Below are positions 60,506-62,902 of a DNA stretch of 64,000 nucleotides, piece by piece. Both the position numbers and the translations under genes were made by a program. Every line of letters starts with the position of its first letter. Within the stretch, counting starts at the first letter, position 1. The stretch is taken from assembly GCA_001600175.1 (NCBI GenBank), contig BCJC01000007.1:1450115-1514114 (forward strand), in the 5' to 3' direction. The notes under the pieces are model-generated. The model worked only from the letters and a program-made list of their open reading frames with translations, was not told the DNA's origin and made no database searches. Source of the DNA: Erythrobasidium yunnanense. Its lineage: Eukaryota; Basidiomycota; Cystobasidiomycetes; Erythrobasidiales; Erythrobasidiaceae.

Positions 60506-62902
60506 ATGTCGACTCAAGCTGTGTGAGCTCGCCGTTTTCAAAGGGACCTTTTTGGGGCTGAGATAGCGATGATGCGCATTTCGCAGTGGAGATATCGGCG
60601 TGCGCTGCGACTATTCAGCATACACAAACCTCATCATCAAACTGACTATCATCTTCGTGCTCTCTACGCTCTCGTCGCCCATTTCCAGCTCATCGGTCTC
60701 GCTGGTGAGTTTGGGCGGTTATAAACGGAAACACTGCGTCTGGGCTGGTCCAGAGGGTGTTTAGACGATACAGAACAATGAGCTGATGTTTATGATGTGT
60801 TTTGCGACTCAAAAGTTATGGGACAGAACTTGATTCTGAACCTGGTGAGGACACCGCTGATCCCGCCGAAAGTAGCGAATCAAGCTGACGAGATATATGT
60901 ATATCTGATTACAGAATGACAAGGGCTTCACAGTCGTCGCTTTCAATAGAACCGTCTCGAAGGTCGACCACTTCCTCGAGAACGAGGCCAAAGGCACAAA
61001 CGTTGTCGGAGCACACTCGATGGAGGAGTTCTGCGCAAAGCTCAAGACACCAAGGAAGATCATCCTCCTCGTCAAAGCTGGAAAGGCTGTTGACGACTTC
61101 ATCGAGGCTCTCCTGCCCTTCCTCGAGAAGGGGGATATCGTTATTGACGGGTGCGCAGAGATGCTTGTAATGACCAAAGGCGAATGCTGACACTCATCGT
61201 CTGCAGAGGTTCGTGTATTACGTGGATACAGCTATAAGTGCTGGACTAATGCTTCTACAATCTCTCGACACAAATAGGAAACAGTAAGCCTCGCAGTTCT
61301 TTATATCCGCTGAATAACCTAGCTGACAATGTATCACAGGTCACTACCCCGACTCCAACCGTCGTATGGATGAGCTCGAGTCCAAGGGTCTGCTCTTCGT
61401 CGGATCCGGTGTCTCTGGAGGAGAGGAGGGTGCCCGTTACGGTCCTTCCCTCAGTACGTTGCGGCTATTTGAGTTCGAGAGAGAGTTATGCTGACGGAAG
61501 AACCCTAGTGCCCGGTGGATCCGATGCTGCTTGGCCTCACATCAAGGAGATGTTCCAGAAGGCTGCCGCTCAGACTGATGGCGAGCGTGAGCATGGTTGA
61601 CGCTAAGATCGATTTGAAGCAGTAGCCTAACATTCGTGTTATCTAGCATGCTGCGACTGGGTCGGTCAGGCCGGTTCCGGACACTACGTCAAAATGGTCC
61701 ACAACGGTATCGAGGTGCGCAGAACCGAGAAGCGAGTGGTAGATATTGCGCTGAACAATTTTGCGACCACAGTACGGTGACATGCAGCTGATCTGCGAGG
61801 CCTACCAAATCATGAAGGACGGACTCGGCATGAGCTGCTCCGAGATTGCAGATGTCTTCGCCAAGTGGAATACTGGAGTCCTCGACTCTTTCCTCATCGA
61901 GATCACCACTGCCATCTTGAAGTACAAGGATGAGGATGGTCAGCCATTGGTCGAGAAGATCATGGATCAGGCTGGTCAGAAGGGTACCGGAAAGTGGACC
62001 GCCATCAACGCTCTCGACTTGGGTGAGCTGGTGTTGCGTTACGTATACTTGCACGCTGTCTGGCTAAAGCATTGATTCAGGTATGCCCGTCACCCTCATT
62101 GGCGAGGCTGTCTTTGCTCGATGCCTGTCTGCTCTCAAGAGCGAGCGAACTCGTGCTTCCAAGATCCTCGGAGGTCCTCAAGCCGAGCCGTTCAAGGGCG
62201 ACAAGCAGCAATTCATCGATGACCTCGAGCAGGCTCTTTACGCTTCCAAAATCATTTCTTACTCTCAGGGCTTCATGCTCATGAGAGAGGCTGCCAAGGA
62301 GTACAAGTGGGAGCTCAACTACGCTGGTATCGCACTTATGTGGAGAGGAGGATGCATCATCCGATCGTACGTCTTCGCTTTACCTGTTCTCCGCTACGCT
62401 GCTTACACTTCGATTGCTACAGGGTCTTCTTGGGCGACATCACCTCCGCCTTCAGAAAGGAGCCCAAGCTCGAGAACTTGCTGTTCGATGACTTCTTCAA
62501 CAAGGCCATCCACAAGGCTCAGCCCGGCTGGCGACGAATCATTGCTCAGTCCGCTCTCTGGGGTATCCCAACACCCGCTTTCTCGACTGCGCTCTCCTTC
62601 TTCGATGGATACAGAACCGAGCTCCTCCCTGCTTCCCTCTTGCAGGCACAGAGAGATTACTTCGGTGTAAGTTCTGCTTGAGGAATCGGTATGGACAGAG
62701 ACTGACCCGTTGTGTCACGCAGGCCCACACCTTCAGAGTCCTGCCTCAGTACGCCTCTGATAAGCTCCCAGAAGGCCAGGATATCCACGTAAGTCAGCCT
62801 GGCATCGTCATCACGCACATAGCTGATTGTTCCTGTCTTTTACACTAGATCAACTGGACCGGACGTGGTGGAAACGTGTCTGCATCGACTTACGCTGCTT
62901 AA
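60506..62902 (+). CDS. GND1: 6-phosphogluconate dehydrogenase
   Basis: Oxidatively decarboxylates 6-phosphogluconate to ribulose 5-phosphate, giving NADPH, in the pentose phosphate pathway. Fifteen exons sum to 492 residues: 60506-60522, 60587-60599, 60689-60704, 60816-60844, 60915-61150, 61207-61208, 61278-61283, 61340-61453, 61509-61586, 61647-61714, 61773-62022, 62081-62366, 62423-62666, 62723-62788 and 62849-62902. Landmarks are [13 protein letters not shown] (Rossmann), [88 protein letters not shown] (catalytic Lys), [12 protein letters not shown] and WRGGCIIRS. It is a full-length dimeric-type enzyme. The first four exons are 13-29 nt. The DGGNSH codons are split over four exons, two of them 2 and 6 nt long. 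This follows from the conserved protein and the frame, not from transcripts. Confidence 0.96.

Follow-up and report, generated by a model that had tools for sequence, protein, structure and literature searches.

The GND1 gene of Erythrobasidium yunnanense very probably contains a coding exon of only two nucleotides, AG, followed 69 nucleotides on by a second minute exon, GAAACA, with three ordinary GT-AG introns setting them apart from each other and from their neighbors. The gene lies in a 64,000-nucleotide stretch of contig BCJC01000007.1, the whole of which we call the window. That its transcript would be spliced along this path is suggested by the coding need: between GACGG, which ends at position 61150, and GTCAC, which starts at 61340, eight further bases are required to encode the motif DGGNSH of 6-phosphogluconate dehydrogenase. 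What makes the case interesting is the gene itself, the clear sequence logic and how densely such exons occur in the genome.

The GND1 gene and its product

The region 60506-62902 of the forward strand encodes a complete 6-phosphogluconate dehydrogenase, decarboxylating (TIGR00873). The TIGR00873 profile matches the deduced protein over its whole length with 761.2 bits, against a curated cut-off of 426.7. Residues 7-492 match chain 2p4q_A with 838 bits; we take 2p4q to be yeast Gnd1, and the gene model is identical to this yeast guide at 364 of 487 guide positions. When the two-nucleotide exon is included, the GGNS segment aligns with IIDGGNSHFPDSNRR of 2p4q, at the expected place. The same segment reads IIDGGNSEY in three other aligned chains, so that GGNS is common to all chains and the H is not. 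Exon 1 and the first part of exon 2 were placed by the reading frame only, and exons 3, 4 and the last 9 nucleotides of exon 2 are also given by the yeast-guided alignment described below.

A genome search found GND1 as the only canonical 6-phosphogluconate dehydrogenase copy. The other match, a diverged relative on contig C9, shares 41% identity with GND1 over the best stretch and carries GANEH in place of GGNSH, inside one uninterrupted exon. Among the best candidates scored in the genome, we found no intronless or retro copy of GND1 that would prove the spliced sequence.

The layout around the two small exons is given in Table 1. A preliminary description of this DNA had proposed the path GG-AG-GAAACA-GT with introns of 56, 69 and 56 nucleotides; on re-reading of the sequence, these coordinates and lengths proved exact, and the GT/AG ends and the CTGAC or CTAAT motifs that it reported are present in introns 5, 6 and 7. 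Both neighbors of the two-nucleotide exon are complete canonical GT-AG introns, of 56 and 69 nucleotides, with branch-like motifs.

Table 1. Features of GND1 (positions in the window) and of other genes discussed in the text (positions as given in each row)
Feature	Location	Strand	Description
GND1 coding region	60506..62902	+	15 exons, 14 introns; intact spliced frame of 1479 nt, 492 aa; exon lengths in order 17, 13, 16, 29, 236, 2, 6, 114, 78, 68, 250, 286, 244, 66, 54 nt including stop
GND1 exons 1-4 and introns between	60506..60844	+	Further short exons (17, 13, 16, 29 nt) at the 5' end of the gene
GND1 exon 5	60915..61150	+	236 nt; ends GAC GG (Asp and first two bases of Gly)
GND1 intron 5	61151..61206	+	56 nt; GTGCGC...CTGAC...CTGCAG; GT/AG ends, branch-like CTGAC
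GND1 exon 6 (predicted)	61207..61208	+	AG, 2 nt; third base of Gly and first base of next Gly
GND1 intron 6	61209..61277	+	69 nt; GTTCGT...CTAAT...AATAG; GT/AG ends, branch-like CTAAT
GND1 exon 7 (predicted)	61278..61283	+	GAAACA, 6 nt; from path enumeration and spliced alignment
GND1 intron 7	61284..61339	+	56 nt; GTAAGC...CTGAC...CACAG; GT/AG ends, branch-like CTGAC
GND1 exon 8	61340..61453	+	Starts GT CAC TAC; GT finishes the Ser codon, then His, Tyr
Diverged 6-phosphogluconate dehydrogenase-like gene (L008)	Contig C9, 178500-183500	-	Seven introns of 50-61 nt each
Actin (L025), predicted exon	Contig C1, 2352800-2356000; 1302-1305 on reverse complement		4-nt exon TGGG inside G-M-G-Q-K
GAPDH (L031), predicted exon	Contig C2, 117800-120300; 345-349		5-nt internal exon ATTCG inside NGFGRIGR
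Ran (L045), predicted exon	Contig C1, 707000-709500; 900-905		6-nt internal exon ACATTG
Beta-tubulin (L029), possible exon	Contig C2, 2646800-2650200; 593		1-nt exon G inside T-G-Q-C-G (GT-AG reading)
Beta-tubulin (L029), putative AT-AC intron	801-872 of L029		ATAAGT donor; just downstream of the 1-nt exon

Enumeration of splicing paths

We enumerated splicing paths across positions 61101-61400 and looked for a 17-residue target string containing DGGNSH. With GT-AG introns, at most three per path and each of at least 40 nucleotides, the target is obtained in 1 of 2,852 paths. Admitting GC donors in linear chains under the same limits brings no extra solution for DGGNSH (1 of 29,362 GT/GC-AG paths), and allowing up to four GT-AG introns of at least 30 nucleotides each again leaves a single hit, among 4,560 paths. 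The winner is the same in all three enumerations and consists of introns 61151-61206, 61209-61277 and 61284-61339. Stepwise or nested GT-AG excision, in a run that covered GT donors, yields 94 distinct products with a single excision, 717 with two and 1,390 with three; the motif is absent from the first two sets and present in one product of the third, which is once more the path through the two-nucleotide exon.

Looser rules were applied to paths of up to two introns. Any donor dinucleotide combined with AG or AC acceptors produces the motif in none of 1,614,855 paths. When acceptors are left free and donors may be GT, GC or AT, 1 of 3,309,457 paths contains it: a GT-AT intron at 61151-61275 leads to an 8-nucleotide exon, AGGAAACA. 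This path and the path through the two-nucleotide exon yield an identical mRNA, because AG not only forms the two-nucleotide exon but also closes intron 6. The initial proposal that only one arrangement gives the motif in frame therefore holds within the GT/GC-AG and nested GT-AG limits but not beyond them, where the GT-AT intron gives the same mRNA. Its reading as a 2-nucleotide plus a 6-nucleotide exon is the sole canonical solution by enumeration, and is also the one returned by spliced alignment with yeast Gnd1.

Spliced alignment and splice signals

For this alignment we wrote a spliced aligner that compares a protein guide with DNA and has no minimum exon length, no frame repair and no GC-AG introns. 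Its splice-site matrices were derived from 18 introns (11 from GND1 and 7 from the C9 relative), with introns 5, 6 and 7 left out. Guided by yeast Gnd1, the program returns exons of ...236, 2, 6, 114... nucleotides. The two-nucleotide exon is kept at intron penalties of 10, 14, 18 and 22, and is replaced, together with the 6-nucleotide exon, by one 8-nucleotide exon at penalties of 26, 30, 34 and 40; at a penalty of 22, two short upstream exons of GND1 are already fused into one of 28 nucleotides. With the donor at 61209 blanked, the score falls from 1910.1 to 1889.7, and the best path then runs through an 8-nucleotide exon at 61207-61214 and loses GGNSH.

Splice-site scores were ranked against decoys within the gene (119 GTs and 163 AGs), counting the decoys that score as high or higher. 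Intron 5 has a donor of 8.4 bits (0 of 119 decoys) and an acceptor of 6.3 bits (6 of 163), and intron 7 a donor of 5.5 bits (1 of 119) and an acceptor of 7.5 bits (0 of 163). The weakest signals belong to intron 6, with a donor of 4.0 bits (7 of 119 decoys) and an acceptor of 3.9 bits (49 of 163); its donor exceeds just 3 of the 18 training donors in leave-one-out scores.

How often such an exon arises by chance was estimated from dinucleotide shuffles of the sequence that the outer sites enclose, 20,000 per run, with introns of at least 45 nucleotides. Any frame-restoring AG/NG/GT occurs in 410 of 20,000 shuffles and in 432 of 20,000 in a second run (about 2%). If a G at +5 and both branch motifs are demanded, 16 shuffles remain (0.08%), and 30 (0.15%) if donor and acceptor must each reach at least 3.5 bits. 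Among the 514 pieces of the window that are 127 nucleotides long, start with GT and end with AG, such an exon of any kind is present in 17, and a single piece survives the strictest test; this one is GND1, which is itself such a piece and passes.

Alternative explanations

Two alternatives would do away with the two-nucleotide exon and keep AGGAAACA (61276-61283) as one exon of 8 nucleotides. The GT-AT intron (61151-61275) would do so with the same mRNA and is the only such path when acceptors are free. Its length of 125 nucleotides is not rare enough to exclude it, since 13 introns are at least 120 nucleotides long among the 143 that measure 300 or less, and a non-canonical AT-AC intron seems to be required in the beta-tubulin gene of this genome, where FWEVISDEH is restored by 0 of 233 GT-AG paths. 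We nevertheless consider a GT-AT intron very unlikely: its acceptor scores -1.5 bits, under all 18 training acceptors (1.5 to 6.9 in leave-one-out scores), and the well-formed CTGAC...CTGCAG/AG/GTTCGT would then sit within the intron by coincidence, with a chance of about 0.08-2%. We know of no functional U2 intron with a pairing of that kind. The other possibility is that one AG of an AGAG was lost in sequencing or assembly, the true gene having a 127-nucleotide GT-AG intron that ends in ...AATAG before AGGAAACA. A collapsed AGAG would leave just what is seen at 61276-61277, where AG is the intron end and also the wanted exon start, and intact gene models elsewhere are no test of the assembly, given an aligner without frame repair. 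Such a loss is nonetheless improbable, as it requires an error at the exact spot and, besides, an internal exon whose good signals arose by chance, and the ultrashort exons predicted for actin, GAPDH and Ran in this genome (see below) are explained by no single alternative intron.

The preliminary description held recursive splicing to be equally plausible, the first splice leaving AG next to a new donor. Introns 5 and 6 are indeed separated by 2 nucleotides, with AG/GT at 61207-61210, and one long intron might leave in two steps, with no exon in between, either recursively or as a stwintron. Recursive splicing takes adjacent introns out in sequence, and its ratchet point retains no bases, whereas two bases, AG, remain in GND1. 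A zero-length ratchet exon, with all bases removed, leaves GG/GAAACA and a product ending at 116 amino acids; an acceptor at 61208 gives this same truncated product in which AG is skipped. The GAG/GTTCGT context is unchanged by the first splice, so that the second donor already exists before intron 5 is removed. A stwintron has an internal intron interrupting a signal of an external one; here every donor, branch motif and acceptor is continuous, and no nested GT-AG path of that kind gives the motif, which stepwise and nested enumeration produces solely by way of the two-nucleotide exon. The two-step readings thus appear highly improbable, not an equal choice. Least credible of all is that GND1 is a decaying copy without DGGNSH: all 492 amino acids are intact, the identity to the yeast guide is that reported above, and no second canonical copy was found in the genome. 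We therefore retain the two-nucleotide exon flanked by canonical introns.

Probable ultrashort exons in other conserved genes

Conserved genes elsewhere in the genome were located by Pfam searches and modeled by alignment to guide proteins; enumeration targets were read from the aligned models. Three genes, actin, GAPDH and Ran, yield predicted internal exons of 4, 5 and 6 nucleotides (Table 1). In each, a single GT-AG path gives the motif (1 of 250 paths for actin, 1 of 70 for GAPDH and 1 of 429 for Ran), and no single intron of at least 40 nucleotides gives it, with any end dinucleotides. Shuffles produce the required exon in 6 (actin) and 8 (GAPDH) of 20,000 cases, and the required exon with good signals in 1 and 0 of 20,000. 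The actin model has further exons of 7 (the first), 17 and 29 nucleotides.

Beta-tubulin perhaps contains a 1-nucleotide exon, G, as the motif is obtained from 1 of 152 GT-AG paths. This case is weaker, because the motif would also come from any of three single non-canonical introns, and the exon would not be needed if a run of G contained a one-base error. Shuffles of beta-tubulin have the required exon in 761 of 20,000 cases, and in 69 of 20,000 with good signals. The 5' exons of this model measure 9, 11, 8, 1 and 36 nucleotides.

The survey comprised 31 gene models, of which 19 were kept and 12, with identity below 55% of guide length, were dropped; L038 (208/375), L035 (361/642) and L040 (110/193) are kept models near this limit. 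Outside the 31 stand the C9 relative, L037 and four loci (L055-L058) for which EF-1alpha served as the guide. Exons were accepted under rules that we set ourselves, namely a local identity of at least 0.6 and introns of up to 260 nucleotides. Among 105 accepted internal exons in the kept models, 6 have at most 6 nucleotides (in 5 genes) and 11 have at most 12 nucleotides (in 8 genes). How many are counted depends on the local identity threshold, because the aligner makes spurious tiny exons where the alignment is poor (2 nucleotides in L026, 1 in L041 and 1 in L049). These three, the first two in dropped models and the last in a kept one, were excluded, as was an 11-nucleotide exon of the dropped model L054. 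Five of the six shortest exons have G, the donor consensus, as their final base, GAAACA being the exception.

Two further observations were made in passing. In Hsp70 (L035, contig C2, 1667300-1670700), the alignment breaks at GNRTT...ERLIG, at about 755-843; judged by eye, a GC-AG intron with the donor GCAAGT, which is outside the aligner's model, would account for the break. Several contig ends (the starts of L010, L012, L013 and L016, and the end of L021) carry an unusual telomere-like 11-nucleotide tandem repeat, GGGTTTACAGA, with shorter variants.

Proposed splicing mechanism and origin

Inclusion of a two-nucleotide exon may be explained by intron definition. The donor, branch site and acceptor of each of the 56-69-nucleotide introns would be recognized as a unit, so that no exon body would need recognition. 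Introns of up to 300 nucleotides in the kept gene models (n = 143) have a median length of 63 nucleotides, probably short enough for such introns to be recognized whole. The splice sites that flank AG lie 2 nucleotides apart and could hardly be occupied together; introns 5 and 6 are thus presumably removed in succession. Intron 5 probably leaves first, since it is the earlier of the two to be transcribed and its signals are the stronger. Its excision would leave GGAG/GTTCGT, from which intron 6 would be removed next. If intron 6 left first, CTGCAG/AGGAAACA would remain and the first AG would then have to be chosen. The order of removal would make no difference to the product.

Translation indicates what errors along this path would cost. 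If AG is skipped, the protein is truncated at 116 amino acids, in keeping with the early stop that had been foreseen for this event. Skipping of both small exons leaves 114 amino acids, and retention of intron 5, 6 or 7 leaves 116, 113 or 217, respectively. When GAAACA is skipped, the frame is kept, Asn-Ser is lost and the product has 490 amino acids. These two residues presumably lie in a conserved, substrate-contacting segment; the GAAACA-skipped isoform would then lose substrate-contacting residues and offers a possible route to an inactive product.

We envisage two histories for exon AG, one of which most likely lies behind it. An intron may have entered an 8-nucleotide AG/GAAACA exon at the AG/G junction. 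Alternatively, two bases may have been lost at an old acceptor, the frame being rescued by a cryptic two-nucleotide exon, AG/AG/GT; this second history resembles the route proposed for a 1-nucleotide exon of Fusarium (PMC12940212). An origin of the introns from introners was considered and rejected, as no similar copies of the region or of the introns were found in the genome: a search that skipped simple repeats and very common words found only the 189-nucleotide region itself, and the 14 GND1 introns gave only self-matches at E 0.01.

Comparison with known ultrashort exons

Exons of this kind are already known, with 1-2 nucleotides in plants and fungi (PMC4674806, PMC12940212, PMC6540522). 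The two-nucleotide exon of GND1, which had been introduced as one that would be among the shortest known, is no record, since 1-nucleotide exons are described in Arabidopsis and Fusarium and 2-nucleotide exons in Phlebia radiata. Arabidopsis APC11 has a constitutive 1-nucleotide exon, demonstrated with cDNA and reporters (PMC4674806), and the 1-nucleotide exons of APC11 and VPS55 are reported to be conserved across land plants (PMC8831610). As in GND1, the frame of these genes needs an ultrashort exon between GT-AG introns that annotation misses; unlike GND1, whose exon is predicted from sequence, they are unrelated plant genes with exons of 1 nucleotide established by cDNA.

Another known case is the 1-nucleotide exon of Fusarium CYP621A, which 18 SRA reads and 20 orthologs support (PMC12940212). 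It too belongs to a fungus and helps to complete the Gly codon of a conserved motif, and its authors first inferred it from a phase mismatch; it differs from the GND1 exon in its length and in having reads and orthologs behind it. That paper also refers to 2-5-bp exons described for Arabidopsis, Drosophila and humans. Gene models of Phlebia radiata reportedly include 2-nucleotide exons (PMC6540522); the passages that we consulted give short exons one sentence, with no GND1 case among them, and name GAPDH for a first exon consisting of the start codon alone, not for an internal exon. Exons as short as 6 bp occur in Phanerochaete P450 genes (PMC1184071). Stwintrons (PMC6616335 and others) resemble GND1 introns 5 and 6 in being adjacent introns that need sequential removal; in a stwintron, however, one intron splits the splice signal of the other, whereas introns 5 and 6 are both complete. 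In the literature matched under the name of two-nucleotide exons, we found one paper, on HLA-F, and none that paired the term microexon with a 2-nucleotide exon.

Implications

A two-nucleotide exon is too short to hold a recognition signal of its own, and so offers a clean test of whether introns alone define splicing. Gene-finding software usually misses exons of such length, and the motifs best conserved in such genes may be misread in gene models and protein databases and by RNA aligners that set a minimum exon length. Taking together GND1 (2 and 6 nucleotides), actin (4), GAPDH (5), Ran (6) and beta-tubulin (1), we lean towards the view that exons of 1-6 nucleotides are routine in core housekeeping genes of this intron-rich fungus, and that its spliceosome, working by intron definition, has essentially no lower limit on exon length. 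If this is true, the standard annotation of such genomes would be wrong in many of their most-conserved genes.
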